Notes under the pieces: generated by a model
What the model was told of the DNA's origin: nothing
Database searches by the model: none
What the model saw: the letters and a program-made list of their open reading frames with translations, nothing else
Shown here: positions 7,424 through 49,115 of the stretch, one piece after another
Numbering within the stretch: position 1 is the stretch's first letter
How the letters are laid out: each line of letters starts with the position of its first letter
Origin: Natronorubrum halophilum
GTDB taxonomy: Archaea > Halobacteriota > Halobacteria > Halobacteriales > Natrialbaceae
NCBI RefSeq assembly: GCF_003670115.1
Contig: NZ_QQTY01000002.1
Coordinates: forward strand, 124,001 to 188,000
Reading direction: 5' to 3'
DNA length: 64,000 nucleotides
Made by a program: the position numbers and the translations under genes

Positions 7424-7457
7424 AGTCTTATGTGTCGAGCGACGCCACTCTGAGGTA

Positions 7458-12837: not shown

Positions 12838-12863
12838 CGGTCTCTCTATCCTCGGTTCGGCGT

Positions 12864-30133: not shown

Positions 30134-32059
30134 ATGACCGAACTTGGCGGATTTCAAGATAGGGTTGCCCGCATTGACCTTTCGGACGGGTCGGTCGCAT
30201 ATGAGTCGATCGACGAGGAGGACGCGAAGAAGTATATCGGTGCTCGCGGGCTCGGCGTAAAGTACGTTTTCGAACAGGGACCGGACGTCGATCCGCTCGG
30301 GCCGGACAACTTGCTCGCGTTCATGAACGGGCCGTTGTCGGGCACGCAGGTGACGATGAGCGGTCGGATCGCCGTCTGTACGAAGTCGCCGCTGACCGGT
30401 ACCGTCACCGACAGCCACCACGGCGGCTGGTCCGGCGCACGGCTCAAGTGGTCCGGCTTCGACGGTCTGTTGTTCGAGGGCGAAGCCGACGAACCGGTCT
30501 ACGCCGTCGTCGAGGACGGCGAGGTCGAACTGCGAGACGCCTCGCATCTCTGGGGAACTGGCTTCCACGAGACGCGCGACGCGATCGAGGAGGAAGTCGA
30601 CGGCTCGTACGGCAAGAACCTCAGCATCATGGGTATCGGTCCCGGCGGCGAGAACGAGGTCAAGTACGCCAGCATCATGAACGAGGACGACCGGGCCTCG
30701 GGACGAGGCGGCACGGGCTGTGTCATGGGGTCGAAGAACCTCAAGGCGGTCGTCGTCAAATCCACGACGAAGATGCCCCAGCCCGCGGATCCGGAGACCT
30801 TCAAGGAGGGCCATCAGCAGGCGATGAAGGCCATTACCGAGTCCGAAGTCACCGCACCGAACGAGGGCGGACTCTCGATGTACGGGACCAACGTCCTGAT
30901 GAACATCGGCGAGGAGATGGACGGCCTCCCGACGAAAAACGGGCAGTACACCTCGACCAAGGCCATGCGCGACGCGGAGGGCGTCGACATCGACGCCGAG
31001 CGCGTCTCCGGCGAAAACGTCCGCGAGAACATCCTCGTCGACGAACCGACCTGTCACTCCTGTCCCGTCGCCTGCAAGAAGGAAGTCGAAGTGCAGGCGA
31101 TGCACAAGGGCGAGGAGATGAACGTCCGGATGGAGTCCTACGAGTACGAGTCGGCCTACGCGCTCGGGCCGAACTCCGGCCACACCGATCGCGACGCCAT
31201 CGCGCTCATGATCGACCGCTGTAACGACATGGGTCTCGACACCATCGACGCGGGGAACATGATGGCGATGGCCATGGAGATGTCCGAGGAGGGCAAACTC
31301 GAGGACATCGGCGAGTTAGAGTGGGGCGACTACGAGACGATGATCGACATGATCGAACAGATCGCCCGCCGCGAGAACGATCTCGCGGACCTCCTCGCGG
31401 AGGGACCGCGACGGGTCGCCGACCGGCGGGAGGCCCACGACAACTCCCTCGCCGTGAAAGGCCAGACCATCGCCGCCTACGATCCCCGCTGTCTGAAGGG
31501 CATGGGCATCGGCTACGCGACCTCGAACCGCGGGGCCTGCCACCTGCGCGGCTACACCCCCGCCGCCGAAATCCTCGGTATCCCGGAGAAGGTCGATCCC
31601 TACGAATACGAGGGTAAAGGTGAACTCACCGCCGCATTCCAGGATCTCCACGCCATCAGCGACTCGTTCGACATCTGCAAGTTCAACGCCTTCGCGGAGG
31701 GCATCGAGGAGTACGTCCTCCAGTACAACGGGATGACCGGACTGGATGTCGGCGAGGAGGACCTGCTCGAGGCCGGCGAGCGGATCTACAACTTAGAACG
31801 GTACTACAACAACCTCGTCGGCTTCGACGGCGACGACGACTCGCTTCCCGCGCGGTTCCTCGAGGACGGCATCCGCGGTCAGGGTGCGAGCGAGGGCGAG
31901 TACTGCGAACTCGAGGAGATGAAAACGGAGTACTACGACCACCGCGGCTGGGTCGACGGCGTCGTCCCCGACGAGAAACTCGAGGACCTCGAGATCGATA
32001 TCGGACCGGGAACCGGCGTCACCAGCGGGAGCGGAGCGGCCGCCCCGAGCGACGACTGA
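30134..32059 (+). CDS. Aldehyde:ferredoxin oxidoreductase (AOR family)
   Basis: This 641-residue tungsten- or molybdenum-pterin enzyme oxidises aldehydes to acids with ferredoxin as electron acceptor. The N-terminal AOR domain has RIDLSDGSV, GARGLGVKYVFEQ and the pterin region SGRIAVCTKSPLTGT...DSHHGGWSGARLKW. Cluster ligands are Cys307, Cys310 and Cys314 (CHSCPVAC) and Cys515 (SFDICKFN). The pterin motif GRGGTGCVMGSKNLKA lies near residue 195. The ending SGSGAAAPSDD is a haloarchaeal tail. It could remove aldehydes made by the alcohol dehydrogenase at 39 kb. Confidence 0.93.
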   Translation: MTELGGFQDRVARIDLSDGSVAYESIDEEDAKKYIGARGLGVKYVFEQGPDVDPLGPDNLLAFMNGPLSGTQVTMSGRIAVCTKSPLTGTVTDSHHGGWSGARLKWSGFDGLLFEGEADEPVYAVVEDGEVELRDASHLWGTGFHETRDAIEEEVDGSYGKNLSIMGIGPGGENEVKYASIMNEDDRASGRGGTGCVMGSKNLKAVVVKSTTKMPQPADPETFKEGHQQAMKAITESEVTAPNEGGLSMYGTNVLMNIGEEMDGLPTKNGQYTSTKAMRDAEGVDIDAERVSGENVRENILVDEPTCHSCPVACKKEVEVQAMHKGEEMNVRMESYEYESAYALGPNSGHTDRDAIALMIDRCNDMGLDTIDAGNMMAMAMEMSEEGKLEDIGELEWGDYETMIDMIEQIARRENDLADLLAEGPRRVADRREAHDNSLAVKGQTIAAYDPRCLKGMGIGYATSNRGACHLRGYTPAAEILGIPEKVDPYEYEGKGELTAAFQDLHAISDSFDICKFNAFAEGIEEYVLQYNGMTGLDVGEEDLLEAGERIYNLERYYNNLVGFDGDDDSLPARFLEDGIRGQGASEGEYCELEEMKTEYYDHRGWVDGVVPDEKLEDLEIDIGPGTGVTSGSGAAAPSDD

Positions 32060-32920: not shown

Positions 32921-33048
32921 GCGACGGGCCGTCGCGTCGGTCGCCCTGAGACACGCCGCTCGATGACGGTCATCCGAGACCGACTACGTAACGGAACGGA
33001 CAAACCCTTTATCCCGGCATCCGTGGATAGCCTTCCCCGTGAGTGATA

Positions 33049-34122
33049 ATGACAAGCACTTATTGTGCGCGACGTCGCTTCCTCGCCGTCGCGGGGGCCG
33101 GAACCCTCGCCGGGTGTTTCGGCGGTCCCGGCGGCGACTCGAGCGAGGAAGCCGCCGACGGCGAACCGGCGATCGATACCGTTACGCTGTTGCTCAACTG
33201 GCGGATCGGCGCGCTTCACGCGCCGTACGTCGCGGCCCGCGAGAACGGCTTTTACGCCGACGAGGGGTTCGCGGACGTCGCGCTCGAGGGCGGGGACGGC
33301 TCCGACTTCGCGGCGAATCAGGCCGGTCTCGGCAACGTCGAGTTCGCGATCTCGAGTAGCGACCAGCTGCTCAACGTCAACAGCCGCGGGCTGTCGCCCC
33401 GCTGCGTCGCCGTCGTCATGCAACGCAATCCGAACGTCGTCTTCGCCACTCGAGACGGGTTCGGCGAGCTAACCGACCCCGAGCAACTCGAGGGAGCGAC
33501 CGTCGGGAGCGGACCCGGGATGGTTCGCGAGATGACTCGGGCGTACCTCGATCGTCACGGCGTCCTCGAGTCCGTCGAGTACGTCGATGCGGGGTTCGAT
33601 ACCGTCCAGCAGTTGCTCGCCGGCGATCTCGACGCCGCCGGCGGCGTGTTCGGTGACGTCGTCGACGCCGAACACCAGGGCGTCGAGATCGACGCCCTCT
33701 CGGTCGACGACACGATCCGGTCGTACGGCCATCTCGTAGCCACCGACGAGGCGTTCGCGGCCGAACACGAGACCACCGTTCGTTCGTTCCTCCGCGCGAC
33801 CGCCAGAGGTGCCGTCTGGGCGAGCGAAAACCCCGAGGACGCGATCGACGCCCTCGTCGACGTCCAGCCGGAACTCGGGGAGGTCCGGGAGAATCAACTC
33901 GACAAGTGGGATCGAATGGCCGCCGAGTACATGCTGTCGGACGCCGTCGCCGAACGCGGCTGGGGCGTCAGCGAACCTGAGCCGTGGGAACAGACGTACG
34001 AGACGCTCGATTCGGCCGGCGTCTTCGAGGACGACGTCGATCCGGAGACGGTGTGGACGAACGACTATCTCGACGATGAAGACGAGCATACCGCCGAGTA
34101 CGCCGAACTGGTCGGGGCATGA
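33049..34122 (+). CDS. ABC transporter substrate-binding lipoprotein (NitT/TauT, SsuA/THI5-like)
   Basis: This 357-residue exported protein starts at ATG 33049 with a twin-arginine signal (CARRRFLAVAGAGTLAGCF) and a lipobox LAGC, so it should be a Tat-exported lipoprotein. The mature part has the NMT1/THI5 signature LLNWRIGALHAPYVAARENGFYADEG. Family members bind thiamine pyrimidine precursors, taurine, nitrate or similar ligands. The C-terminal ERGWGVSEPEPW segment is shared with the HTH-fused paralogue at 36691-37977. A permease gene follows at 34314. Confidence 0.9.
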   Translation: MTSTYCARRRFLAVAGAGTLAGCFGGPGGDSSEEAADGEPAIDTVTLLLNWRIGALHAPYVAARENGFYADEGFADVALEGGDGSDFAANQAGLGNVEFAISSSDQLLNVNSRGLSPRCVAVVMQRNPNVVFATRDGFGELTDPEQLEGATVGSGPGMVREMTRAYLDRHGVLESVEYVDAGFDTVQQLLAGDLDAAGGVFGDVVDAEHQGVEIDALSVDDTIRSYGHLVATDEAFAAEHETTVRSFLRATARGAVWASENPEDAIDALVDVQPELGEVRENQLDKWDRMAAEYMLSDAVAERGWGVSEPEPWEQTYETLDSAGVFEDDVDPETVWTNDYLDDEDEHTAEYAELVGA

Positions 34123-34313: not shown

Positions 34314-35147
34314 ATGGCTGACGGTCAGCGAGACTCACACCGCCGGTGGTATCGGACGCCGTCGATCGTTTCGCCCTCGACCGTTCGCGGCCGACTCGTT
34401 GCGGCCGGGCGGCGAGTCGTCCCGCCGGCCATCGTCTTCGCGGCGCTGCTCGTCGCGTGGCACGCGGCCGTCGTCGTCGCCGACGTACCGACGCTGATCC
34501 TCCCGTCGCCGGTCGACGTCGCGACGGCGCTGGCCGAGACGTATCCCACGTTGCTCGGCGACGCGACCGTCACCGGACTCACCGCCGCGGCGGGGCTGTT
34601 CGGCGGCGGCGCGGTCGGTTTCGTACTCGCGTTCGCGATGACGTACTCGCGGACGGCGACGCGGACTATGCTGCCCTACGTCGTCGCGTTGCGGATCGCC
34701 CCGCTGATCGCCGTCGCGCCGCTGTTGTTCCTCTGGTTCGGCCGCGGAATTCCCGCTCGAGCGCTGCTCGTGGCGACCCTGACGGTGTTTCCGCTGACGA
34801 TCGCCACGCTCGACGGACTTCGGCGGACGCCGACGAGGTACCTCGACCTCGCTGACTCGGTCGGCGCGTCCCGCGCCGAAACGTTCCTCCTTGTGCGCGT
34901 GCCGGCGGCGGCACCGAGCGTCGTCGCGGGGGGAAAGATCGCCGCGACGCTGGCCGTCGTCGGGAGCGTCGTCGCCGAGTTCGTCACGTACGACGCCGGC
35001 CTCGGCTACCGGGTGTTCGAAACCGCGACGTACCTGCGGACGGCCGAAACGTACGCCGCGCTCGTCGTCCTCTCGGGGCTCGGGATCGGCTTCTATCTCG
35101 TCCCGGTGGGCGTAGAGCGCCTGCTCTGGGACGACCCGACTCCGTGA
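34314..35147 (+). CDS. ABC transporter permease (NitT/TauT type)
   Basis: This 277-residue permease has about six transmembrane helices and the binding-protein-dependent transport motif with the EAA loop DLADSVGASRAETFLLVRVPAAAPSVVAGGKIA (about residues 180-212), through which it contacts the ATPase. The N-terminus has about 30 extra charged residues. It lies 191 bases after the lipoprotein gene on the same strand, converging with a second permease at 35172. The only ATPase in the locus is the one on the opposite strand, which may serve both permeases. Confidence 0.9.
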   Translation: MADGQRDSHRRWYRTPSIVSPSTVRGRLVAAGRRVVPPAIVFAALLVAWHAAVVVADVPTLILPSPVDVATALAETYPTLLGDATVTGLTAAAGLFGGGAVGFVLAFAMTYSRTATRTMLPYVVALRIAPLIAVAPLLFLWFGRGIPARALLVATLTVFPLTIATLDGLRRTPTRYLDLADSVGASRAETFLLVRVPAAAPSVVAGGKIAATLAVVGSVVAEFVTYDAGLGYRVFETATYLRTAETYAALVVLSGLGIGFYLVPVGVERLLWDDPTP

Positions 35148-35171: not shown

Positions 35172-35951
35172 CTATCGGTCGGCCGACGACTCGAGCCCCA
35201 GCCGCCGGTACGCCCCCCGCTGGAGGAGGACGACCGCCCCGTAGAGAATCAGGCCCTCGAGCAACAGGACGGCGAGCGCGGCGAGCATCACGTCCGGGCG
35301 GACGTTCTCCGAGCCCATCAACACGAGGTAACCGAGACCCTCGTCGGCGATCACCCACTCCGCGACGACCGCGCCGACAACGGCGAGCGTCACCGACTGC
35401 TTGAGCCCCGCGAACACGTCCGGCAGCGCGTACGGCAGGTCGACGAAGACGATTCGCTCGAGGACGCCCGCGTCGACGGATCGCAGCAGTTCGCGGTGGG
35501 CCGTCGGCGCGCCGTCGAGCCCCGCGGCCGCGTTCAGGACCAGGGGGAAGAACGCGATGAGCGCGACGAAGACGACCGCCGTCGAGGGTCCCGTCCCGAG
35601 GTAGATCAACAGCAAGGGCGCGACGGCGATCTTGGGCAACACCCTGATCGCGACGAGATACGGATACACCGCGGTGCGAACCCGCGGCAGGTACGCGACG
35701 AGCACCGCCAGGAGAAAGCCGCCGGCGATGCCGACGCTCCCGCCGTAGACGACCGTCTCGAGCGTGTACCAGGCGTTCCGTGCATACAGCGTCGGGTTCC
35801 CCACCAGTCGAGCGGCGACGGCGGTCGGCGCGGGCAACACGAACGAGGGCACGTCGCCGAGGGCCGTCACCGCCCACCAGCACAGCGTCCCGACGGCCAG
35901 CGCCAGCAACGGGTAGGTCGCGTCGCCCGCGAGGGTCCGGGCCCGCGTCAT
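35172..35951 (-). CDS. ABC transporter permease (NitT/TauT type), second copy
   Basis: This 259-residue permease has about six helices and the EAA loop ELLRSVDAGVLERIVFVDLPYALPDVFAGLKQSVTLAVVGAVVAEW. It overlaps the end of the upstream ATPase gene by four bases and so belongs to a three-gene minus-strand operon (HTH-binding protein, ATPase, permease). It is clearly paralogous to the permease at 34314; the two genes converge with a 24-base gap. Confidence 0.92.
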   Translation of the reverse strand: MTRARTLAGDATYPLLALAVGTLCWWAVTALGDVPSFVLPAPTAVAARLVGNPTLYARNAWYTLETVVYGGSVGIAGGFLLAVLVAYLPRVRTAVYPYLVAIRVLPKIAVAPLLLIYLGTGPSTAVVFVALIAFFPLVLNAAAGLDGAPTAHRELLRSVDAGVLERIVFVDLPYALPDVFAGLKQSVTLAVVGAVVAEWVIADEGLGYLVLMGSENVRPDVMLAALAVLLLEGLILYGAVVLLQRGAYRRLGLESSADR

Positions 35952-36694
35952 CGGTCGTGGGCCTCGTGGAGGGTTCGGCGGACGGCCGCGACCTGCTCCT
36001 GAAACCGTCGCGAGCCGAAGACGTCCGTGTCACGCGGGCCGGGTAACTCGACGTCGAAGGTCGCCTCGATCCGGCCCGGTCGACCGCAGACGACGAGACA
36101 CCGATCGGCGAGAAACACCGCTTCGGGGACGCTGTGGGTGACGAAGACGACCGTTTTCCGCTCGCGACGCCAGAGATTCCGGATCTCGACGCCGAGTTCG
36201 TCGCGCGTGATCTCGTCCAGTTCCCCGAACGGTTCGTCCATCAGGAGGACGTCGGCACCGAGGTGGAGCGCCCGGGCGATGGCGACTCGCTGTTTCATCC
36301 CGCCGGAGAGCGCCGCCGGTCGCGCGCCCTCGAACCCCTCGAGTCCCATCGAACGCAACAACCCGCGCGCGTCCGCCTCGTTCGGCGCGTCGCCGGCCAA
36401 CGTCCGGAGGAACGTGACGTTCTCGAGGGCGCTCTTCCACGGAAAGAGCGTGTGTTGCTGGAAGACGACCCCGACGTCGGCGTTCGCCTGCGCGACCGTC
36501 GGTGGCTGGCCGTCGATTCGAACGCGCCCGGTCGTCGGCTCCTGCAGGCCGCCGATCGTCCGCAGCAGCGTCGTCTTGCCACAGCCCGACGGGCCGACGA
36601 CCGTGATGAACTCGCCGTCATCGATCCGGAGGTCGACGTCCGCGATCGCGGTAACGTCGTCGAACGCGACCGCGACGTCCTCGAGTTCGATCAC
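35948..36694 (-). CDS. ABC transporter ATP-binding protein (NitT/TauT type)
   Basis: This 248-residue ATPase has Walker A GPSGCGKTT (about residues 34-42), the Q-loop FQQHTLFPW, ABC signature LSGGMKQR, Walker B VLLMDEPFGELD and the H-loop VTHSVPEAVFL. It overlaps both neighbours by four bases, so the operon is tightly coupled. It energises import through the permeases of this locus. Confidence 0.94.
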   Translation of the reverse strand: MIELEDVAVAFDDVTAIADVDLRIDDGEFITVVGPSGCGKTTLLRTIGGLQEPTTGRVRIDGQPPTVAQANADVGVVFQQHTLFPWKSALENVTFLRTLAGDAPNEADARGLLRSMGLEGFEGARPAALSGGMKQRVAIARALHLGADVLLMDEPFGELDEITRDELGVEIRNLWRRERKTVVFVTHSVPEAVFLADRCLVVCGRPGRIEATFDVELPGPRDTDVFGSRRFQEQVAAVRRTLHEAHDR

Positions 36695-37977
36695 GCCTCA
36701 CCACGGAGCAACGCTCCCTGCTCGAGCGCCGTTCGGAGGCGCTCCCACATGTCCGGTCGGTGCCACCCCCAGCCGCGTTCGCGGACGGCGTCGCTCTCGC
36801 CGAACGTCGAGGCGGCTCGCTCGAAGGTCCGACCGATCCGATCCGGTGGATCGTCGCTCGCCGCCGCGATCCGTTCGGCCGCCGGTCCGGGATCGCGTCG
36901 CGCCTCGGCCCAGCCGCCGGTCGTTCCCGCCAGCGCGCCCGCGAGCGCCGTCGGCCGATCCTCGAGCGTCCGCTCGCGGGCGACGATCGTCGGCCCGTAG
37001 ATCGGGAAGTGATCGGTGAGGGCCAACGCGTCGACGGTCCGCCCTTGCCGTTCCAGTCGCGTCGGATCGGCGAACGAGCCGGTCACGACGTCGGCGTCGC
37101 CGTCCAAGAGCGCGTTCCGTTCCTCGCCGTTCGTGTCGACGATACGGCTGTCGTCGTCGAATCCCGTCTGCGAGAGGAAGAGCCGTCCGAGCAGTCGCGT
37201 CTCCGAGTCGGGGGGCATGCCGATCCGTTTCCCCTCGAATTGGTCGATGCGTTCCAGCGGCTCGCCGAACGCGTCCCGGACGGTGTAGAGGACGGTCATC
37301 GCCCGCTGGTAGCACACCGCAACGGGAACGATCGGTTCGCCCGCGGCCCGCGCCCGAACGACCGTCCCGGCACCGACGACGGCGAGGTCGGCGGGTCCCG
37401 AGATCACGCGCTCGAGCGCGCGACGCGACCCCTCGCGGTGATCGATCCGAACGTCGACGTCGAACGCGCCGTACCACCCCGCAGCGATTGCGGCGTATAT
37501 CGGCACGTGAAGGGCGTTCGGACGCCAGTTCAGAACGAGGCCGACCGAGGACGACGATTCCGCTTCGACGTCGCGGACCCTGCCTCGCGGCCCGCTCGGG
37601 TCGGGCTCTCGGCGGGTATCGGCGCGTTCGAGCAGCGCCTCGGCGTGACTCCGGTAGGTGTTCTCGATCGTTTCCTCGACGCCGTCGGTCGGTCGCCAGG
37701 CCGTCCGGGGCCGCCCGCCGTCCGAATCCCTCTCTCGGACGGCCGTCCGCTCGACCAGTTCGCGGGACTCGAGTCGGGCCACCGTCTCGCTGATCGTCGT
37801 CCGGTTCACTCGCGTCCCGGCCTGGAGGTGGACGGTCGTCGCCGGCTCGGCCTCGCGTTCGGCCCGCAAGAGCAGGTAGGCGAGGAGCCGCGCCGGCGTT
37901 CGACCGATGCCGGCCGCGATCCTGTCGACGAGCGGATCGTCCTCGCCGTCGAGCTCCCAGAAGGAACGCGATCGCAT
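36691..37977 (-). CDS. Winged-helix domain fused to an NMT1/THI5-type substrate-binding domain
   Basis: This 428-residue protein has no signal peptide. Residues about 20-95 form a winged helix-turn-helix (LAYLLLRAERE..., TVHLQAGTRVNRTTISETVARLESRELVER). From about residue 140 the sequence is a periplasmic-type binding domain (LVLNWRPNALHVPIYAAIAAGWYGAF, DLAVVGAGTVV, ERGWGWHRPDMWE) homologous to the lipoprotein at 33049. It heads the operon with ATPase and permease. It is most likely a cytoplasmic ligand-responsive regulator of this importer. A binding-protein role would need export, for which no signal is seen. Confidence 0.85.
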   Translation of the reverse strand: MRSRSFWELDGEDDPLVDRIAAGIGRTPARLLAYLLLRAEREAEPATTVHLQAGTRVNRTTISETVARLESRELVERTAVRERDSDGGRPRTAWRPTDGVEETIENTYRSHAEALLERADTRREPDPSGPRGRVRDVEAESSSSVGLVLNWRPNALHVPIYAAIAAGWYGAFDVDVRIDHREGSRRALERVISGPADLAVVGAGTVVRARAAGEPIVPVAVCYQRAMTVLYTVRDAFGEPLERIDQFEGKRIGMPPDSETRLLGRLFLSQTGFDDDSRIVDTNGEERNALLDGDADVVTGSFADPTRLERQGRTVDALALTDHFPIYGPTIVARERTLEDRPTALAGALAGTTGGWAEARRDPGPAAERIAAASDDPPDRIGRTFERAASTFGESDAVRERGWGWHRPDMWERLRTALEQGALLRGEA

Positions 37978-38245: not shown

Positions 38246-39148
38246 ATGAGTCAAACACCAACCCTGTCACACATGACGGTCGCGGACCACCGCGATCTGG
38301 CGACGACCCTCGGCGTCGAGACGCCGGGAGACGGAGAGGTAACGTGGGAGTTGCTCGCGGGACGGGTCGAGCCGCACTCCGGGTCGGCGTTCGCCTCGAG
38401 AGGGGAGGCGATCCGGGCCGACCTCGAGGGGCGGCTCGATCCCGACGTCCTCGAGCGAGAGCGAACGAACATGGCGGCCGAGATCGGGCGTCTGGCGGCC
38501 GTCCGCGACGCGGGCGTTCCGGACGAGCCGGCGGGACCGTATACGGAGGTCGCCACGCCCGGCTGGCGACTCTACGAGCACCTGCTCGAGGTCGGCTTCT
38601 TCGAGAGTCTCGACGAGAACCTGCCGCGGTTTACCGCCGAGCACATCGAGACGACGGCGCGCGAACTGGTGCTCGCGGAGCCGCTCTCGTCGGCGCTCGA
38701 CGACGTCGGGTTCGACGAGGCGGAAAAGACGGCGCTGTTGAGCGCCGTCACGAACAACACGGAGCGACTCGCCCGGTGGGTGCCCTCGAACCAGATTCCG
38801 GCGGGCGTCGAGTTCGACACGTCGAACGTGCCGCCGCTGCACCAGCGCGCGATAGGCGGGGCGTTGCTGTGGATTCGCGGCCTCGACAGACACCTCTGGC
38901 AGAACGAGGTGCTCGTCACCGACGAGATTCTCGACGACGCCGTCAGACACGTCAAGGGCATGCTGGGCGGGTTGTACGTGTCGGCGACCGCCGCCTGCGA
39001 TCTCGCCACGGAGGGACAGTTCACGGATCAACAGCTGACCGCCGCGCTCACCGCGGGCGCGGCCGTCCAGATCGTCGAACAGGAGGAGTTGCTGCACGAC
39101 GTCTTCTACATCAGAGACGAGATGCGCGCTCCGAGCGAGCTGAGGTGA
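38246..39148 (+). CDS. Uncharacterised all-helical protein encoded with a PQQ-type dehydrogenase
   Basis: Started at ATG 38246 (MSQTPTLSHMTVADHRDL), the product has 300 residues; the open frame upstream runs through the promoter and is not coding. The sequence is almost entirely amphipathic helix, acidic, without signal peptide, membrane helix or cysteine pairs. Notable segments are RWVPSNQIPAGVEF near residue 180 and IVEQEELLHDVFYIRDEM near the C-terminus. I cannot assign it to a family. It ends six bases before the dehydrogenase gene, so it is surely cotranscribed, and may be a maturation or cofactor-insertion partner. Confidence 0.75.
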   Translation: MSQTPTLSHMTVADHRDLATTLGVETPGDGEVTWELLAGRVEPHSGSAFASRGEAIRADLEGRLDPDVLERERTNMAAEIGRLAAVRDAGVPDEPAGPYTEVATPGWRLYEHLLEVGFFESLDENLPRFTAEHIETTARELVLAEPLSSALDDVGFDEAEKTALLSAVTNNTERLARWVPSNQIPAGVEFDTSNVPPLHQRAIGGALLWIRGLDRHLWQNEVLVTDEILDDAVRHVKGMLGGLYVSATAACDLATEGQFTDQQLTAALTAGAAVQIVEQEELLHDVFYIRDEMRAPSELR

Positions 39149-39154
39149 TCACGC

Positions 39155-40864
39155 ATGGCACTACGCAACGACAGGGCCGTTCAGGCCGCACGCGACATCG
39201 AACTGGTAGAGACCGACGACGGCTATACGCTGGTCGGCGGTCCCGAGCACTCGATCACCCAGGAACACGACGGCGACCGGATTCCGGAGGTCGACGTCGA
39301 TCAGGAGATGCTGAGCAACGCGGGGGAGGACCCCGAGTCCTGGTTGATGTACGGCGGGAACTACGAACAACAGCGGGTGACGACCGCCGACGTCATCACG
39401 CCGGACAACGTCTCCGACCTCGAGCTCGAGTACGAGATGTCCGTCGGGACCGGCTCGAGCATGGAGGGAACGCCCATCGTGGTTCCGGGCGACCCGCCGG
39501 TCATGTACCAGACCAACGGGCCGAACCACATGAAGGCGATCGACCCTCGCGAGGGCGAGGTCCTCTGGAGTTACACCTACGCGGTGCCGATCGGCGTCGA
39601 GCTGTGTTGTGACGACAACAATCGCGGGGCCGCCGTCCTCGGCGACAAGGTGTACATGACGACGCTCGATTCCGGCGTCGTCGCGCTGGACCGCTACACC
39701 GGCGAGGAGGTCTGGCACACCCAGACGGCCGACCACGAGGTCGGCTACTCCGCGACGTGGGCCCCCGTAATCCACGATGGAACGATCTACACGGGCAGCG
39801 CCGGCGGCGAGTACGGCGTGCAGGGATTCATCGCCGCTCTCGACGCCGAGAGCGGGGAGATGATGTGGCAGACCCACACGCTTCTCGAGGACGAGTGGAT
39901 CGGCGCGAGCCGCGAGCACGGCTGCGGGACGAGCTGGATGACGCCGACGATCGACGAGGAGCGCGGCGTGCTCTACTCGCCGGTCGCCAACCCCGGCCCG
40001 GACTTCGACGGCACCGTCCGGCCGGGACCGAACTTCCCGACCTGCGGGACGCTCTCGCTCGATCTCGAGGAAGGCGGGTTCAACTGGGGCTTCCAGAGCA
40101 GCCCGCACGACGTCTGGGACTACGACGCGGCGGCTCCGCGAGTGCTGGTGCCCGACGTCGAGGTCGACGGCGAGTCGACGGACCTCGTGGTCGGCTCCGA
40201 CAAGTCCGGGTGGGTCTACATGATGGACCCCGAGTCGGGCCAACTCCACGAGCGAAGCGACGAGATCTGCCAGCACATCAACATGTGGGAGATGATCCCC
40301 CACATCAGCGCGGACGAGCGGATTCCGTTCGTCCCCGGCGCGCCGGGCGGCAACGACTGGCAGCCGCCGTCGTACAATCCCGAAACCGGGTACGTGTACG
40401 TCATCCACCAGAACTTCCCGCAGGACCTCTACTGGCGGTACGAGGAGTACAGCGAGGGCAACCCCTACTGGGGCGGCAACCTCGACGATCCGGCCTCGGA
40501 GATGCCCGACGAGTGGAACGAGAGCATCACCGCCTTCGCCGCGGTTGATCCGGCGACGGGCGAGCGCGTCTGGCGCGAGTGGATCGAGAGCGAGGACGAG
40601 TTCTACATGTGGGGCGGCTCCATGTCGACGGCGACGGGGCTCGTCTTCAACGGCACCCAGAACGGCACCTTCGTCGCCTACGACGGCGAGAGCGGCGACC
40701 GCCTCTGGGAGTACGAATTCGACGTGCCGATCAGCGCCTCGCCGATGAGCTGGTACGATCCCGGCGAGGAGAAACAGTACGTCGCCGTCCAAGTCGGCGG
40801 CAGCGGCTGGCTCCGCCAGGGAACTCGCGGCGACACGCTCGCCGTGTTCTCGATGGAGGACTGA
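39155..40864 (+). CDS. PQQ-dependent alcohol dehydrogenase-like quinoprotein with lanthanide-type metal site
   Basis: This 569-residue eight-bladed propeller protein aligns with MxaF/XoxF-type alcohol dehydrogenases. Visible are the vicinal disulfide Cys151-Cys152 (ELCCDDNNRG), metal ligand Glu219 (GGEYGVQG), PQQ-stacking Trp261 (GTSWMTP), Asn279 (ANPGPDF, RPGPN), the catalytic Asp322 and the second Asp324 (WDYDAA). The Trp-Asn and Asn-Asp spacings match methanol dehydrogenase. Asp324 is the extra ligand typical of lanthanide enzymes. No signal peptide is seen, although such enzymes act outside the membrane. It should oxidise an alcohol and reduce the cupredoxin encoded next. Confidence 0.88.
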   Translation: MALRNDRAVQAARDIELVETDDGYTLVGGPEHSITQEHDGDRIPEVDVDQEMLSNAGEDPESWLMYGGNYEQQRVTTADVITPDNVSDLELEYEMSVGTGSSMEGTPIVVPGDPPVMYQTNGPNHMKAIDPREGEVLWSYTYAVPIGVELCCDDNNRGAAVLGDKVYMTTLDSGVVALDRYTGEEVWHTQTADHEVGYSATWAPVIHDGTIYTGSAGGEYGVQGFIAALDAESGEMMWQTHTLLEDEWIGASREHGCGTSWMTPTIDEERGVLYSPVANPGPDFDGTVRPGPNFPTCGTLSLDLEEGGFNWGFQSSPHDVWDYDAAAPRVLVPDVEVDGESTDLVVGSDKSGWVYMMDPESGQLHERSDEICQHINMWEMIPHISADERIPFVPGAPGGNDWQPPSYNPETGYVYVIHQNFPQDLYWRYEEYSEGNPYWGGNLDDPASEMPDEWNESITAFAAVDPATGERVWREWIESEDEFYMWGGSMSTATGLVFNGTQNGTFVAYDGESGDRLWEYEFDVPISASPMSWYDPGEEKQYVAVQVGGSGWLRQGTRGDTLAVFSMED

Positions 40865-40901
40865 GCCGACGGACGACTGACCCAAGACACACTACACAAC
40901 C

Positions 40902-42371
40902 ATGACGAACGAACAACGCTCACGCGACGTTTCTCGTCGCGGCATGCTAAAGGGAACGGCGATCGCCGGAACGGCCGCGATGACCGGCACCGCAGGTGCC
41001 TATCGCGACGAGATCGACTTTCGGCTGCCGGCCACGCAGAACGACGGCGAGGGGCGAACGCTCTCGCTGCTTGGCATCGTCGGCGGCTGGATCGGCGTCG
41101 CCCCAGCCGAGATCGACGGCGTCTCCAACCCGACGCTACGACTGATCGAGGACGAAGAGAACGAAATCGTCTGGACGAACGGCGACGGCATGAACCACAA
41201 TTTCACCGTCGCGGACGAAGACGGCGAGGTGATCGAGGCCACGGAGTTCGTGGATGAAGCGGGCGAGTCCACCTCGCTCACGATCACTCCAGACGAGGAG
41301 ATGGCGGAGTACTACTGTCAGCCGCACCCGGTCCAGATGCGCGGTCCGATCGAACTGATCGACCCGGACGAGGTGCACGAACTCCGCGTCCGCGTCGAGG
41401 ACGAAGACGGCGAACCGCTCGGCGCGGAGGTGTTTGTCGGGGAGCACCACTCGTTCTCCGACGTCGCCGCGCGGCCGAGTCCGCCGGAAGAAGAGGACGA
41501 AGCGACGGAGGAGTTAGAGCCGGGAGACGACGAAGGCGGCAACGAAACGGCCGCTAACGAAACCGAGAACGAAACGGCCGGCGACGGCGCTCAGGACGAG
41601 GAGACGCCGGCCGAGGAGGACGCGCCGGCGATCGCCCGCTTCGACATGCTCGAGGACGGCGAGTACGACCTCGAGGTCTGGACCTACGGCCACGAGCGGG
41701 TCACCGATACGGTCGAGATCGACGGCGACGACGAGGAGGTCACCATCACGCTCTCGGCGGTCGAAGTGGGCGATCCGGTCGAGACCTTCTCGATGCGTCT
41801 CGAGGAGGGCCAGTGGGTCGGCCAGGAACCCGACGAGATCGCCGACGAGGCGAACCCGACGCTCGAGGTGGAGTCGGGCGAATCCTACGCGGTCGAGTGG
41901 GAGAACGGAATCGGTCGCCACCAGCCCGAAGCGGAGGATCGGGTCTTCGAACCGCTTCCCGGCCACAACTTCGTGATCGCCACCGGCGGCGACACCAACG
42001 AGTGGAACACGTACGTTCGCTCGAACTTCCTCGACGAGGAAGGCGACACGCAGACCGTCGAGTTCGTCGCCGAAGAAGAGATGGCCGTCTACCTCGATCA
42101 GTGCCAACTCGACGCGATCGGCGAAATCGCCGTCGACGGCGAGACCGGTGAGACGGTCGCCGTCGGCAACGAGACGACGGAGACAGACGGCAACGAGACG
42201 GTCACCGCGGACGGCAACGAAACAGCCGACGTAACGGGTAACGAGACGATCGAGACGGCTGATAACGAGACCGTCGGAACCGACGGAAACGAGACGGTCG
42301 AGAGCACCGACAACGAGACGGCTGATAACGAGACGATCGAGACGGCCGGTAACGAGACGTCCGACGACTGA
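40902..42371 (+). CDS. Tat-exported two-domain cupredoxin with Asn-Glu-Thr repeat tail
   Basis: This 489-residue protein has a twin-arginine signal (SRRGMLKGTAIAGTAAM, residues 11-27). The first cupredoxin domain carries type-1 copper ligands His99, Cys139, His142 and Met146 (CQPHPVQM). An acidic linker and a carboxypeptidase-regulatory-like segment follow. The second cupredoxin-like domain (about residues 290-415) keeps Cys but reads CQLDAIG, so its copper site is incomplete. Residues about 420-489 are NET-type repeats, possibly N-glycosylated. It lies 37 bases after the quinoprotein gene and is its likely electron acceptor. Confidence 0.85.
   Translation: MTNEQRSRDVSRRGMLKGTAIAGTAAMTGTAGAYRDEIDFRLPATQNDGEGRTLSLLGIVGGWIGVAPAEIDGVSNPTLRLIEDEENEIVWTNGDGMNHNFTVADEDGEVIEATEFVDEAGESTSLTITPDEEMAEYYCQPHPVQMRGPIELIDPDEVHELRVRVEDEDGEPLGAEVFVGEHHSFSDVAARPSPPEEEDEATEELEPGDDEGGNETAANETENETAGDGAQDEETPAEEDAPAIARFDMLEDGEYDLEVWTYGHERVTDTVEIDGDDEEVTITLSAVEVGDPVETFSMRLEEGQWVGQEPDEIADEANPTLEVESGESYAVEWENGIGRHQPEAEDRVFEPLPGHNFVIATGGDTNEWNTYVRSNFLDEEGDTQTVEFVAEEEMAVYLDQCQLDAIGEIAVDGETGETVAVGNETTETDGNETVTADGNETADVTGNETIETADNETVGTDGNETVESTDNETADNETIETAGNETSDD
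42165..42360 (+). repeat. Short tandem repeats encoding NET(V/I/A) units
   Basis: The word aacgagacg and close variants recur about eleven times at intervals of 12-24 bases, encoding the repetitive NET tail of the cupredoxin. Such tracts are prone to length change. NxT is the archaeal N-glycosylation sequon. Confidence 0.8.
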
Positions 42372-42506: not shown

Positions 42507-43607
42507 TCACGCGTAGTTCGCGATCCAATAGCCGACGTACAGCGCGACGAGGACCGCACCGCTCGAGCGCGTCACGCGACCTCGAGCGAGCGTGCCGGCG
42601 ACGACGAGCAAGCACGCGGCGAGGAACGGCCAGTGGACGGTCATCACCGCGCCGCCGGTATCGACGGGACGCAGTAACGCGACGATGCCGACGTTGGCCG
42701 TCACGTAGAACACCGTGCTCCCGACGACGTTCCCGACGGCGAGGTGCGCCCGACCCTGGCGAACCGGTTCGACGGTGAGCGCCAGTTCCTCGATCGAGGC
42801 GATGAACGAAAGCACCGTCGCGCCGAACGCGAGCCCCGAGATCCCCAGCGCCACGAAGATCCCTTCGGCGCTCGCCACCGTGAGTCCGGACCCGACCGTC
42901 ATCCCGACGATCGCGAGGAGCGCGACGACCAGGCTGAACCGGCCGCTTTTCCCCTCGAGGTCGGGGACGAACTCGTCGAGGTCGAGGTCCGGGTCGCGTT
43001 TGCGCCCGGCGGATCGTTCGTCGGCGCGCGCTCCCTCGAGCGCGGAAGCGCCGCCGTTCGGCTCGGTTTCGATCGTCGCGTTCGTCTCCGCCGGGTCCTT
43101 CGCCTCGAGATCGACGGCGTCTTCGACTTCGTCCGAGAGCAGGTACGTCGTCTCCGAGCGGCGCTCGCGCCAGAAGATGCCGGCGAGCAGCGGGACGAAC
43201 AGAACGGTGAGGATCGCACCGTCCGCCCAGTCGAGTGTCCCGTCGATAGAGAGCGCGAACGCCGGGAGGGGAACGAGGACGAGCACGAACAGGTAGCTCC
43301 GCGGGACGTCGATCCGAAACGGGACCGTGATCCCCGCGACGCCGACGGCGACCGCGAGGACGAACAGCGACTCGCCGAACACCGTCCCGAGCGCGAGGTC
43401 CGGGAGGTCGACGAACGCCGCCGTGACGCCGAGGATCGCGTTCTCGAGGTCGATCCCGGCGAGAACGACCGCGAGGAAGAACCCGGAGATACCGAGCGAG
43501 ACGGCGCTCCGGGCGACGGCTTCGATAAAGACCTCGACGCACCAGATGACGAGGACGACGCCCGCCAGGAATAGGGCGGCGAGGCCGACGAGTTCCGCGG
43601 CGCTCAT
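42507..43607 (-). CDS. Sodium/calcium exchanger family (CaCA) antiporter
   Basis: Started at 43607 (MSAAELVGLAALFLAGVVLVI), this protein has 366 residues, about ten transmembrane helices and two inverted halves. The alpha repeats are degenerate relatives of GNxxGSN/TSxPE: GTVFGESLF in the first half, SFIASIEELALTVEPVRQG and GNVVGSTVFYVTANVG in the second. A long acidic cytosolic loop (about residues 155-225) separates the halves. It would extrude Ca2+ or another divalent/trivalent cation against Na+ or H+. A paralogue lies next to it at 43905. Confidence 0.85.
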   Translation of the reverse strand: MSAAELVGLAALFLAGVVLVIWCVEVFIEAVARSAVSLGISGFFLAVVLAGIDLENAILGVTAAFVDLPDLALGTVFGESLFVLAVAVGVAGITVPFRIDVPRSYLFVLVLVPLPAFALSIDGTLDWADGAILTVLFVPLLAGIFWRERRSETTYLLSDEVEDAVDLEAKDPAETNATIETEPNGGASALEGARADERSAGRKRDPDLDLDEFVPDLEGKSGRFSLVVALLAIVGMTVGSGLTVASAEGIFVALGISGLAFGATVLSFIASIEELALTVEPVRQGRAHLAVGNVVGSTVFYVTANVGIVALLRPVDTGGAVMTVHWPFLAACLLVVAGTLARGRVTRSSGAVLVALYVGYWIANYA

Positions 43608-43904
43608 ACGCGCAGTGAAACGGTGGCGTCGCACTTATAGTACCGACCGCGACGAGCTACACACCGATCGCCTCGTCCGCGGTTCTCGCTCACTCCGTTC
43701 GCTCACGGCTCGCAAGGCTCGCCGTCTGCTCACGGGCGCACAGCGCCCGTTCGCATGGTCCGCGGGATCGAAGATCCCGCGCTATTCGCATTCTCGCGGT
43801 TTTCGCTCACTCTGTTCGCTCCGAACCGCGCTCGCTCCGAACCGCGCTCCCCTCGTGCGACCGGGCGTGTACTGGCTCGCAGTGGCTACGATACTCCCGA
43901 ACGC
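43608..43904. repeat. Intergenic repeat with paired hairpins and a 16-bp tandem repeat
   Basis: Two perfect hairpins stand close together: arms 43732-43739/43743-43750 (acgggcgc, loop aca) and 43761-43769/43773-43781 (cgcgggatc, loop gaa). Further on, tcgctccgaaccgcgc occurs twice in tandem (43816-43831 and 43832-43847). The first hairpin unit has a diverged copy at 52.2 kb. No coding frame is seen between the two exchanger genes. Confidence 0.75.
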
Positions 43905-45014
43905 TCAGTCCGGAACCGGGACGCCGCCGAAGGCGACGAGCGCGACGATCCAGTAGGCGACGTACAGCGCGGCCAGGAGGGAGCCGTGCCTGCGTCCAAC
44001 GCGTCCGGTTGAGATGGCGTAGGCGGCGACGGCGGTCAGGACGATCACCGCGGGGAGGTGAAAGACGAGCACGGACGACGGGATCGCCACGTCCGCGACG
44101 AACGCGATGACGCCGACGTTCGCCGTGACGGAGAAGACCACGCTGCCGACGACGTGGCCGATCCCGATCTCCGGAATCCCCCGACGGACCGGTTCGATCG
44201 TCAACAGCAGGTTCTCGAACGTCAGGACCAGCGTGAGGACGGTTGCCCCGAAGACCGTCTCCTCGATCCCCCACGACTCGACGACCGCCTCGGAACCCGC
44301 CTCGAGGAGAATCGATCCCGCGACGATGCCGACCAGCGCCAGGACCGACAATCCGAGCCAGAAGAGGCCTTCGTATCGCGACTCAGTGACGAACCGGTCT
44401 TCCGGGATCTCCTCGAGAACCGTTCTGCGATCGATCTCCTCGAGGGTGAGTTGATCGATCGGAACGCCGCCGTCGGCCTCGATTCGGTCCGCGATCTCCG
44501 AGTCCCTGAACACCGGCAGGTCGCGCTGGTACTCACGGACGACGATGTATCCGAGGAGGACGACGAACGCCGCCACGAGGACGAGTCCGTGGACGACGGA
44601 GAGCGTGCCCGCGAGAACGAACGGCACCAGGAGAAACGGCGAGAGGGCGAACAGCAACAGGTAATCTCCGGGCACGTCGACGGGAAACGGTCGAACGATC
44701 GCCGCCGCCGCGAGGGTGATCCCGGTGATCGCGAGGGCCGTCCCGAGCGCGGTCCCGAGCGCGACCTGTTCGAGGCCGCCCGCGCTGAACACGAGCGCGA
44801 CGACGGTGTCGTCGAACTCGAGGCCCGTGAAGACGATCGCGAGCGTGAAGATCGAAACGCCGAGGCCGATCGCGGCCCGAGTGAGGTAGCTGATGAGCTT
44901 CTCGACGCTGTAGGTGAGCACGATCGCGCCCGCGACGAGGATGACGTACGCGAGCCACGTCCCCCGGCCCTCGATGGCGCTCTCGAGGAGGTCTTCCACC
45001 ATAGCCCGTTGCAT
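43905..45014 (-). CDS. Sodium/calcium exchanger family (CaCA) antiporter, second copy
   Basis: This protein has about 369 residues if started at 45014 (MQRAMVEDLLESA); ATG 45029 is an alternative and is close to a TATA-like tract. There are about ten helices, with alpha-repeat relatives GTALGTALAITG in the first half and VLTFENLLLTIEPVRRG plus GHVVGSVVFSVTANVGV in the second. The loop between the halves is acidic and shorter than in the adjacent paralogue. Same predicted function: cation/Ca2+ antiport. Each gene probably has its own promoter, because the hairpin repeat separates them. Confidence 0.85.
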   Translation of the reverse strand: MQRAMVEDLLESAIEGRGTWLAYVILVAGAIVLTYSVEKLISYLTRAAIGLGVSIFTLAIVFTGLEFDDTVVALVFSAGGLEQVALGTALGTALAITGITLAAAAIVRPFPVDVPGDYLLLFALSPFLLVPFVLAGTLSVVHGLVLVAAFVVLLGYIVVREYQRDLPVFRDSEIADRIEADGGVPIDQLTLEEIDRRTVLEEIPEDRFVTESRYEGLFWLGLSVLALVGIVAGSILLEAGSEAVVESWGIEETVFGATVLTLVLTFENLLLTIEPVRRGIPEIGIGHVVGSVVFSVTANVGVIAFVADVAIPSSVLVFHLPAVIVLTAVAAYAISTGRVGRRHGSLLAALYVAYWIVALVAFGGVPVPD

Positions 45015-45245
45015 GCTAGCTGCCAACATATAACCACCAACTCGGGGAGAGAAGTTCATTGGAAAATCGTACACGCGTTGCGGATCGAACGCCGGGACGA
45101 CCGTCGAACCGGGCGGACCACCGGCCGTGGCGAGGGTCGCCCTCGAATGGACCCGTACAGCGGCGACGACGCCGGTCCCGCCCGTTTTGGAGCGAAAATC
45201 CGCCGGCTGGTTGCAAAGCGACGAACGCCGAACGCCGGCGGGTCG

Positions 45246-46007: not shown

Positions 46008-47174
46008 ATGTCAATGAACGCCGTCGTCTACCAGGGACCGAACGATGTCGCCGTCGAAGAGGTCGACGAGCCAGAGATCGAACACGAGAACGACATTATC
46101 GTCGATATCACGACGACGTGCATCTGTGGATCGGACCTCCACATGTACGAGGGGCGAACCTCGGCCGATCCGGGGATCGTCTTCGGTCACGAGAACATGG
46201 GAACCGTAATCGAGGCCGGCGACGCCGTGACGTCGCTCGAAGAGGGCGACCGCGTCGTGATGCCGTTCAACGTGGCCTGTGGATTCTGCCGGAACTGTGA
46301 AAACGGCTATACCGGCTTCTGTACCAACGTCAACCCCGGATTCGCCGGCGGTGCGTACGGATACGTCGCGATGGGGCCGTACAAGGGCGGCCAGGCCGAG
46401 AAGCTCCGGGTGCCTTTCGCCGACTTCAACGCGCTCAAACTGCCTGAGGGTGACGAGCACGAGGACGCCTTCGCGCTCCTCGCGGACATCTTCCCGACGG
46501 GGTGGCACGGTACCCGACTCGCGAACCTGCAACCCGGCGAGTCGATCGCGATATTCGGGGCCGGCCCCGTCGGCCTGATGGCCGCCTACAGCGCCAAGCT
46601 ACAGGGCGCGTCGGAGATCTACATCGTCGACCGCGTCGAGAGCCGCCTCGAGATGGCTGAAGACCACTGCGACGCCCGCGCGATCAACTTCGAGGAGAGC
46701 GATCCCGTCGAACAGATCAAAGACGCACACGGCGGCGGTGTCGACAACGGCGTCGACGCGGTGGGCTACCAGGCGATCGACCCCGAGACGGACCCGGCCG
46801 ACGACGCCTACGACCCGGCTCGGGAGAACCCGGCAGTCGTGCTCAACCAGCTCATTCAGACCGTTCGACCGACCGGACAACTCGGAATTCCGGGATTGTA
46901 CGTTCCGTCTGATCCCGGCGCGCCCGACGAAATGGCGGCGCAGGGCCGACTCGGCATCGACTTCGGAAAACTCTTCGAGAAGGGGCTGAAGCTGGGCACC
47001 GGCCAGTGTAACGTCAAGCAGTACAACCGGGAGCTGCGAGACATGATAATCGAGGGACGCGCCGACCCCAGCTGGGTCGTCTCCCAGCGCGTCGACCTCG
47101 AGCGCGCGCCGGAGATGTACGAGAAGTTCGACGAGCGCGAGGAGGGCGTCATCAAGGTCTTGCTCGAGCCCTAA
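46008..47174 (+). CDS. Zinc-dependent, glutathione-independent formaldehyde dehydrogenase-like protein
   Basis: This 388-residue medium-chain dehydrogenase has the catalytic zinc sites ICGSDLHMYEG and FGHENMG, a structural zinc lobe with CGFCRNC...GFC, and the Rossmann motif GAGPVGLMAAYSA (about residues 185-197). The long insertion after the Rossmann core (AVGYQAIDPETDPADDAYDPAREN) is typical of the FdhA/formaldehyde dismutase branch that holds NAD tightly. It oxidises formaldehyde or small aldehydes/alcohols. It may act downstream of the quinoprotein at 39 kb. Confidence 0.9.
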   Translation: MSMNAVVYQGPNDVAVEEVDEPEIEHENDIIVDITTTCICGSDLHMYEGRTSADPGIVFGHENMGTVIEAGDAVTSLEEGDRVVMPFNVACGFCRNCENGYTGFCTNVNPGFAGGAYGYVAMGPYKGGQAEKLRVPFADFNALKLPEGDEHEDAFALLADIFPTGWHGTRLANLQPGESIAIFGAGPVGLMAAYSAKLQGASEIYIVDRVESRLEMAEDHCDARAINFEESDPVEQIKDAHGGGVDNGVDAVGYQAIDPETDPADDAYDPARENPAVVLNQLIQTVRPTGQLGIPGLYVPSDPGAPDEMAAQGRLGIDFGKLFEKGLKLGTGQCNVKQYNRELRDMIIEGRADPSWVVSQRVDLERAPEMYEKFDEREEGVIKVLLEP

Positions 47175-47788: not shown

Positions 47789-48931
47789 TCACAGCGGGAA
47801 CGGATCAGCCGCTGCTTCCACCTCCGCCGCTTCGTCGCCCGCCGCCAGACACGCCTCGAGTTCCTCGCGGATTCGGTCCTCGTCCATCTTCCGGCCGATG
47901 AACACTAACTGCGTGCGACGGTCGTCGCCCGGTCGCCACTCGCCGATCGGACCGGCCCTGACGGACGGGCCGGCCTGACTGAGACCGATCACTTCCTCGC
48001 GGTTTGCGACGTAACAGACCCCTTTGGCCCTGATGATCGCCCCGTCCCAGTCCTCGAGCCAGGCCGCGAGTCGCTCCGGGTGGAACGGTCGGTCGGATCG
48101 GAAGACGAACGACGAGACGCCGTGACGTTCGGCGGCACCCGGTTCCGCGTCGCGGTCGTGATCGTCTCCACTCCGGGTACGCTCGTCGCGGTCGTGATCG
48201 TGACCCTCCCCCCGCAGGTGGCGTTTCCACCCCTGGGAACGCTTCGCCGTCTCGAAGTCGAACCGATCGGTGTCGAGGACGACGTCCGGATCCACCTCGC
48301 AGTAGGACGTTCGCAGCCGTTTCGCTCGCGGTTGGAGGGTGTCCACGACCGCTTCGATCTCCTCGAGAACGTCGTCGGGGACCATGTCGGACTTGTTGAG
48401 GAGCAAGACGTCACAGAACTCGATCCCTTCGACGAGGACCTCGCTCAGCGGCCGGTCTTCGTCGGGTTGAGCGCCCGCCGGCAACTGCGCTCCGGCGTCG
48501 AACTCCTTCCAGAACCCGTACGTGTCGAGGACGGTCACCATCGTATCCAACCGAAACAGCGTCGTCGGGTCCACATCGCTGGTTTCCGTCCCTTCGGTGA
48601 ACACCTGTGCGACGGGGATCGGTTCGCTGATCCCCGAGGACTCGACCAGCAGGGTGTCGAACACTCGGCTCTCCGCCAGCCGCGACGCCTCCTCGAGGAG
48701 GTCTCCCTGCAACCGACAACAGATGCAGCCGTTCGAGAGGTCCACGATCCCCTCGTCCTCGCTGGCTCGCTCGATGAGTTCCGCGTCGATATTCACCTCG
48801 CCCATGTCGTTGACGATCACTGCCACCCGCCGTCCTCCCGGATTCGACAGCAGGTGATTGATCAGCGTCGTTTTCCCCGCCCCGAGATAGCCGCTGACGA
48901 CGGTGACGGGAATCATCTCGGTATCAGTCAT
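47789..48931 (-). CDS. CobW/COG0523 family metal-binding GTPase
   Basis: Started at 48931 (MTDTEMIPVTVVSGYLGAGKTT), this 380-residue metallochaperone GTPase has Walker A GYLGAGKTT, the CICC metal motif at residues 69-72, VESSGISEPIPVAQ (G3 region) and LLNKSDMV (G4, NKxD). A His/Asp-rich metal-binding stretch (GHDHDRDE..., about residues 270-295) precedes the CobW C-terminal domain, which includes RAKGVCYVANREEV and QLVFIGRKMDED. It likely delivers zinc or another metal. It is the intact counterpart of the remnant at 17427. Confidence 0.92.
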   Translation of the reverse strand: MTDTEMIPVTVVSGYLGAGKTTLINHLLSNPGGRRVAVIVNDMGEVNIDAELIERASEDEGIVDLSNGCICCRLQGDLLEEASRLAESRVFDTLLVESSGISEPIPVAQVFTEGTETSDVDPTTLFRLDTMVTVLDTYGFWKEFDAGAQLPAGAQPDEDRPLSEVLVEGIEFCDVLLLNKSDMVPDDVLEEIEAVVDTLQPRAKRLRTSYCEVDPDVVLDTDRFDFETAKRSQGWKRHLRGEGHDHDRDERTRSGDDHDRDAEPGAAERHGVSSFVFRSDRPFHPERLAAWLEDWDGAIIRAKGVCYVANREEVIGLSQAGPSVRAGPIGEWRPGDDRRTQLVFIGRKMDEDRIREELEACLAAGDEAAEVEAAADPFPL

Positions 48932-49115
48932 GCGATCGTATCGCACGGTACGGGCGGTACTAAGTGACCGGGCGGTTCTCGCTGACAGTACACCGATGAG
49001 ACGGGTTCCGATCGAAGACGCACGTCGGCCGTCGATCGTCACCCCGAATACGATGGTAGAGCTGTCAGTCCGTCGATTGCGTCGCGTGCGAACGCCGCGG
49101 AGCGCCGCGAGTCGA

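Follow-up and report, generated by a model that had tools for sequence, protein, structure and literature searches.

A haloarchaeal PQQ-type alcohol dehydrogenase with a lanthanide-type metal site, its genomic partner orfX and a linked importer

A gene for an alcohol dehydrogenase of the pyrroloquinoline quinone (PQQ) type in the archaeon Natronorubrum halophilum raises the questions which metal and cofactor such an enzyme would use, how the cofactor would be obtained, and on which side of the membrane a protein without N-terminal signal would work. The gene lies within a stretch of 64,000 nucleotides (contig NZ_QQTY01000002.1, positions 124,001 to 188,000 of the forward strand), which is called the window here and to which coordinates refer unless another locus is named. 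In bacteria, lanthanide enzymes are well known; none of the papers searched describes a haloarchaeal PQQ or lanthanide enzyme. The comparisons below support the prediction of a haloarchaeal quinoprotein that oxidises alcohols and has a metal site of the lanthanide type. The gene upstream of it, orfX, is the obligate genomic partner of the dehydrogenase. An initial annotation of this DNA had proposed the quinoprotein and overlooked orfX, the lack of detectable PqqC and PqqE, and a linked importer with its regulator.

Identity and metal site of the dehydrogenase

The gene and the codons of its predicted active site are the following.

39155-40864, forward strand: PQQ-type alcohol dehydrogenase, 569 amino acids, no N-terminal signal (PF01011, TIGR03075 and PDB matches)
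39605-39610, forward strand: codons of the vicinal Cys151-Cys152 (aligned with SolV C104-C105; 41/71 homologues)
39809-39811, forward strand: codon of Glu219, metal ligand position (SolV E172; Glu in 63/71)
39989-39991, forward strand: codon of Asn279, metal ligand position (SolV N256; 71/71)
40118-40120, forward strand: codon of Asp322, catalytic Asp position (SolV D299; 71/71)
40124-40126, forward strand: codon of Asp324, lanthanide-Asp position (SolV D301; 71/71 haloarchaeal and 12/13 other sequences, Thr in 1KB0)

The window dehydrogenase scored 182 bits against PF01011, for which the gathering score is 26.7, and 373.7 bits against the methanol/ethanol family model TIGR03075, which is under the curated cut-off of 480.05. 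Its best relatives in the PDB are PedH (6ZCV, 6ZCW) and XoxF (4MAE, 6DAM), with PedH on top by E-value. It is the single PQQ-type dehydrogenase of its 4.67 Mb genome, where the two further matches are weak propeller repeats.

Homologues are present in 70 of the 391 sampled haloarchaeal genomes and in 20 of the 86 genera. They form one clade separate from the 13 bacterial sequences in the tree, with a Shimodaira-Hasegawa approximate likelihood ratio test value of 99. A comparison with the XoxF and PedH families had been suggested by the initial annotation; the haloarchaeal proteins group outside both clades. Because the bacterial sample is small (13 rows) and several branches are long, the tree shows a distinct haloarchaeal family and says nothing of its origin. 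Within this family, clade A comprises dehydrogenases with 78-91% identity to that of the window, clade B those with 56-66%, and clade C those with about 50% (loci L058-L061 and L063). Clades D and E are more distant, E being the deepest (L069, L072-L075, L107 and L109-L111).

For the site analysis the XoxF enzyme SolV (4MAE) was taken as the reference, and conservation was counted over 71 haloarchaeal homologues. The residues that had been noticed at methanol dehydrogenase spacings all align with SolV: Glu219 with Glu172, Asn279 with Asn256, Asp322 with Asp299, Asp324 with Asp301, Cys151/Cys152 with Cys104/Cys105 and Trp261 with Trp238. Arg157 likewise corresponds to Arg110, and Lys350 stands where SolV has Arg326. 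No variation was found at Asn279, Asp322, Asp324, Trp261, Arg157 or Lys350. Position 219 is Glu in 63 homologues, Asp in six and Tyr in two, the eight replacements occurring in deep members. The vicinal cysteine pair is kept in 41 homologues; it is present throughout clades A, B and C and missing from every member of D and E. As judged from the alignment, the agreement of the site residues with XoxF positions is far beyond chance, and the earlier proposal of a haloarchaeal quinoprotein whose metal site is of the lanthanide type is borne out at this level, the site being conserved throughout the homologues.

The assignment of the metal depends on the second aspartate. Asp324 indeed occupies the lanthanide-Asp position, as had been claimed, and the same residue is present in 12 of the 13 non-haloarchaeal rows, whereas the Ca2+ quinohaemoprotein 1KB0 has Thr. 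The extra Asp is regarded as diagnostic of lanthanide use, with promiscuity possible (PMC11996626). The lanthanide-type reading is thus good but short of proof, since the residue is invariant and the same study allows for promiscuous metal use. It could be that the dehydrogenase runs on Ca2+, or on either metal, in spite of the extra Asp: the motif is also predicted in m-GDH, a characterised PQQ dehydrogenase, yet its lanthanide dependence is only facultative (PMC11996626). With Asp324 invariant in the whole family and replaced by Thr in the Ca2+ relative, we consider this alternative unlikely.

Partner genes and a probable route of export

The dehydrogenase gene is flanked by two genes that could bear on its localization and on its electron acceptor.

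38246-39148, forward strand: orfX, 300 amino acids, all-helical, of no described family; proposed export or maturation subunit (linkage, co-occurrence, structural model)
40902-42371, forward strand: two-domain cupredoxin with a twin-arginine translocation (Tat) signal and 13 N-glycosylation sequons; proposed electron acceptor (PF00127, sequence features)
41196-41339, forward strand: codons of the copper ligands of cupredoxin domain 1, His99, Cys139, His142 and Met146 (translation)

Only 6 base pairs separate orfX from the dehydrogenase downstream of it. The arrangement is the same, with orfX directly 5' of the dehydrogenase, in 70 of 70 loci with upstream sequence, even where dehydrogenase identity drops to 33-40%. 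A profile built from 24 orfX proteins was positive in all ten genomes with the dehydrogenase to which it was applied and in none of 30 genomes without it. Searches of orfX against Pfam, NCBIfam and PDB sequences gave no family match apart from Tat-signal models; one member matches PF12318 at E=0.08, which is the noise level. Where orfX is annotated in plasmid records it is labelled hypothetical. Its AlphaFold2 model is all-helical and confident (predicted local distance difference test score, pLDDT, of 82; predicted template modelling score of 0.85). A fold search with this model returned no convincing match, the best Foldseek hit having an E-value of 0.24 and the best VIA hit, a helical bundle, a Z-score of 6.8, where values below about 13 carry little meaning for such bundles. 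These sequence and fold searches thus gave no match that would mark orfX as a PqqC-like or known hitchhiker fold. One genome (G241) holds six orfX copies, suggesting local expansion of the orfX-dehydrogenase pair.

An N-terminal export signal was sought in the haloarchaeal dehydrogenases as a hydrophobic segment and was found in none. Their N-terminal hydrophobicity reaches at most 0.98 (Kyte-Doolittle, 13-residue window), compared with 1.45-2.74 in the six bacterial relatives whose N-terminus is complete, in line with the earlier statement that the gene lacks a signal peptide. The signal is often present in orfX instead. Tat-signal models match 10 of 24 orfX members, an RRxFL or RRxLL motif occurs in the orfX of 32 relatives, as for example RREFLQ in locus L100, and altogether about half of the orfX copies start with a Tat signal. 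On the tree the orfX signal is ancestral and was lost twice: before clades A and B diverged from each other, and again in L062, L064-L067 and L071.

Several relatives carry further features that point to the cell surface.

L072, 8444-10360; L107, 7768-9648; L109, 7190-9073: dehydrogenases with a C-terminal PGF-CTERM-like anchor and no N-terminal signal
L073, 7752-9845; L074, 8107-10203; L110, 7321-9423; L111, 7229-9331: dehydrogenases with an N-terminally fused cupredoxin domain

The PGF-CTERM anchor exceeds the Pfam threshold at the C-terminus of the L072 and L107 proteins and is weaker in L109. One haloarchaeal dehydrogenase holds an insert of Asn-Glu-Thr glycosylation sequons. To judge from their sequences, the anchors, the cupredoxin fusions and the sequon insert are traits of extracellular proteins. 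The orfX copies beside the anchored and fused dehydrogenases open with an RRxFLK-type motif (RRELLA in L073) followed by a hydrophobic stretch. Precedents are known for such an arrangement: the γ-subunit of the FAD (flavin adenine dinucleotide)-glucose dehydrogenase of Burkholderia is a helical Tat hitchhiker required for folding and secretion of the signal-less catalytic subunit (PMC6719666), and PaoABC also combines a signal-less catalytic subunit with a Tat-signal neighbour subunit (PMC4273604). On account of the surface traits, the orfX signals and these precedents, the family is read as exported in complex, and for clades C, D and E this is highly likely.

The case of the window differs, because here orfX starts without a Tat signal. 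The next gene does encode a Tat-exported cupredoxin with a complete type-1 copper site, as first described; its Tat motif is VSRRGMLKG, the ligands H99, C139, H142 and M146 lie in domain 1, and domain 2 has Cys401 with no His after it, which leaves one complete site in the protein. Such a cupredoxin adjoins the dehydrogenase on its 3' side in all clade A loci and elsewhere mainly in two basal relatives. It was therefore rejected as a general Tat partner, and the original idea that the dehydrogenase leaves the cell with a Tat partner stands only in part: export in complex is plausible in view of the anchors and fusions of relatives, but the universal neighbour is orfX. A Tat protein is found directly 3' of the dehydrogenase in clade A and in L062, L064-L067 and L071. 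A strict rule by which the adjacent partner takes over the Tat signal that orfX has lost does not hold for the family, clade B having neither and L048 and L052 both, but within clade A and L062, L064-L067 and L071 the pattern is suggestive. Export in complex accordingly receives moderate confidence for clade A and is uncertain for clade B, on the distribution of signals. The adjacency in clade A and the gene fusions in clade E make the cupredoxin or its relatives a likely electron acceptor of the dehydrogenase.

Alternatively, the dehydrogenase of the window's clade could be a cytoplasmic enzyme, with orfX as a soluble subunit or chaperone that has lost its role in export and the cupredoxin acting separately. 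This would agree with the absence of a signal from both orfX and the dehydrogenase in the window, and with sister clade B, in which the orfX signal is lacking and no Tat partner lies nearby; on one clade B plasmid, genes for a ferredoxin and an aldehyde ferredoxin oxidoreductase occur near the dehydrogenase, and some clade B members may be cytoplasmic. The cysteine pair, usually a disulphide, is nevertheless retained throughout clades A, B and C, surface anchors and fusions to cupredoxins occur among the relatives, and the Tat cupredoxin is invariably placed directly 3' of the dehydrogenase in clade A. A cytoplasmic location for the window's clade is regarded as rather unlikely for these reasons.

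Cofactor supply and the linked importer

Profile searches for PqqC and PqqE found neither in any of the 391 haloarchaeal genomes, for PqqE above the cut-off, while both were found in three of three bacterial plasmids used as positive controls, at 376-588 bits; the models are bacterial, and a very divergent archaeal pathway could escape them. As the known PQQ synthesis enzymes are undetected, the cofactor would come from outside, and if the dehydrogenase uses PQQ, haloarchaea must take it up. The same observation could mean that PQQ is not used and that the propeller holds another quinone-like cofactor or is empty, as proposed for the 'empty quinoproteins' of Acidobacteria. The corresponding model, TIGR04528 (acido-empty-quinoprotein group A), gives 264.9 bits for the window dehydrogenase, though under its cut-off of 650. 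However, the family-wide invariance of metal ligands, Trp261, Arg157 and Lys350 is unlike a decaying pocket, even with Asp or Tyr for Glu219 in eight of the 71 homologues, and many bacteria use PQQ that they do not make (PMC12124388). A protein that does without PQQ appears improbable.

A possible uptake system is encoded upstream of the dehydrogenase.

33043-34122, forward strand: NMT1-type substrate-binding Tat lipoprotein of an ATP-binding cassette (ABC) importer, likely start ATG 33049 (PF09084, 116.8 bits)
34314-35147, forward strand: ABC permease 1 (open reading frame, neighbourhood conservation)
35172-35951, reverse strand: ABC permease 2 (open reading frame, neighbourhood conservation)
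35948-36694, reverse strand: ABC ATPase (open reading frame, neighbourhood conservation)
36691-37977, reverse strand: regulator combining a helix-turn-helix with an NMT1 binding domain; proposed to sense the importer ligand (PF09084, weak MarR_2)
L119, about 5528-11031, and L120, about 8296-14137: NMT1 importer without dehydrogenase; a lipoprotein with propeller repeats and a cupredoxin-like protein are encoded alongside

Regulator orthologues (E≤1e-60) occur in 58 genomes, all of which have the dehydrogenase, and in 11 of these the regulator lies at a different place in the genome or on a separate contig. For the binding protein (E≤1e-75) the dehydrogenase is present in 45 of 47 genomes. The nominal hypergeometric values of 1e-57 for the regulator and 2e-38 for the binding protein are overstated, owing to the kinship of the genomes and the frequent linkage of the genes. 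Where the importer occurs without the dehydrogenase, as it does in two genomes, it adjoins a Tat lipoprotein with propeller repeats and a cupredoxin-like protein. A riboswitch search near the importer found none.

The near-exclusive co-occurrence of importer and regulator with a PQQ-type enzyme, and the propeller-repeat and cupredoxin-like neighbours in the two exceptional genomes, would fit PQQ as cargo. The nearest solved relative of the binding protein is, on the other hand, ThiY (3IX1), a binder of the thiamine pyrimidine formylaminopyrimidine and not of PQQ. Some different ligand, for instance a thiamine pyrimidine, the alcohol substrate or a metallophore, is the somewhat more probable cargo, and from these comparisons PQQ is a possibility with the balance against it. 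A different ligand would affect the importer step alone and is compatible with the remainder of the explanation.

Proposed mechanism, neighbouring genes and known systems

In view of the above, the following mechanism can be considered. The dehydrogenase would fold in the cytoplasm together with orfX, and the complex would cross the membrane via Tat. In ancestral members orfX would supply the Tat signal; in the window's clade, where orfX has lost this signal, it probably comes from the Tat cupredoxin next door. Once exported, the enzyme would oxidise an alcohol and pass the electrons to the cupredoxin. The NMT1-type importer and the NMT1-fused regulator may bring PQQ into the cell for loading before export. 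The points that weigh against this mechanism are the missing signals of the window pair and of clade B, the kinship of the binding protein to ThiY, and the poor predicted model of the dehydrogenase (shallow alignment, pLDDT 50), which was left unused for that reason. A quinoprotein exported in complex through Tat, with a cupredoxin as acceptor and scavenged PQQ, seems to us about evenly poised between right and wrong. The more specific version, an extracellular lanthanide quinoprotein that is loaded in the cytoplasm with ABC-imported PQQ and exported folded through Tat with orfX hitchhikers or the cupredoxin acceptor, is doubtful.

Three neighbouring oxidoreductases could act on the products of the dehydrogenase.

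46008-47174, forward strand: Zn-dependent dehydrogenase like glutathione-independent formaldehyde dehydrogenase, possible next step (TIGR02819, 345.6 bits, cut-off 637)
30134-32059: aldehyde ferredoxin oxidoreductase
52437-54614: formate dehydrogenase alpha subunit (TIGR01591, 727.8 bits, above cut-off)

Many loci of clade A have the formaldehyde-dehydrogenase-like gene close to the dehydrogenase, and genes like the other two recur by other dehydrogenase loci. These enzymes would suit a pathway that oxidises an alcohol, perhaps methanol, as far as CO2. An HbpS/GlcG-like protein (PF03928; 45246-45701 in the window) often adjoins the formaldehyde-dehydrogenase-like gene in clade A. Beside the cupredoxin lies a pair of Na+/Ca2+ exchanger-type transporters (42507-43634 and 43905-45074), which recurs close to the dehydrogenase in clades A, B and D and for which a role in metal supply is possible. 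A CobW/ZigA-type metallochaperone GTPase (47789-49042; 344 bits, under the ZigA cut-off) is encoded near the cluster, and in the vicinity of the formate dehydrogenase YqeC (49976-50722; selenium cofactor biosynthesis model TIGR03172, 173.6 bits) adjoins a MobA-like gene.

With XoxF (SolV 4MAE, 6DAM) the haloarchaeal enzyme shares the PQQ propeller, the Glu/Asn/Asp/Asp site, the vicinal cysteines and the tryptophan under PQQ. It differs in its separate clade, in Lys for Arg326, in lacking a signal, in having a cupredoxin and not a c-type cytochrome as neighbour, and in the undetected PQQ synthesis genes. The lanthanide ethanol dehydrogenase PedH/ExaF (6ZCV, 6ZCW), the top PDB match, has the same metal site; the haloarchaeal enzyme again falls in a separate clade, with orfX or the cupredoxin as partner. 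In bacteria, PedH/ExaF is exported by the Sec pathway. The Burkholderia γ-subunit (PMC6719666) and PaoABC (PMC4273604) resemble the system in the division between a signal-less catalytic subunit and a Tat-signal neighbour, but orfX has no sequence match above noise to the γ-subunit families, is larger (300 amino acids) and has lost its Tat signal in the window's clade; compared with the Gluconate_2-dh3 and FAD-SLDH small subunits there is no significant family match and no clear fold match. PQQ-type dehydrogenases are known in Thaumarchaeota, where they were identified by PF13360 and pqqC was gained in the lineage (PMC10640624), whereas haloarchaea have no detectable PqqC. Scavenging by PqqU in Gram-negative bacteria (PMC12124388) is similar in that the user cell does not make its PQQ. 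PqqU is a TonB-dependent outer-membrane importer, whereas haloarchaea would have at most an ABC importer over a single membrane.

The most interesting aspects of the system are the obligate orfX partner, the likely signal-less export, the lack of a detectable PQQ pathway and the close linkage of an importer and its sensor. The orfX proteins form a family that had not been described, with a possible role in the export of a cofactor enzyme, and the importer with its fused sensor is a candidate for PQQ uptake across the cytoplasmic membrane. If the more specific version, with loading in the cytoplasm, is true, the order of cofactor loading would be opposite to that in bacteria, whose enzymes bind PQQ outside the cytoplasm. 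If the enzyme family is real and active, the use of rare earths and PQQ would extend to an archaeal class without a known route of PQQ synthesis, which would imply reliance on the PQQ of neighbours in brines.

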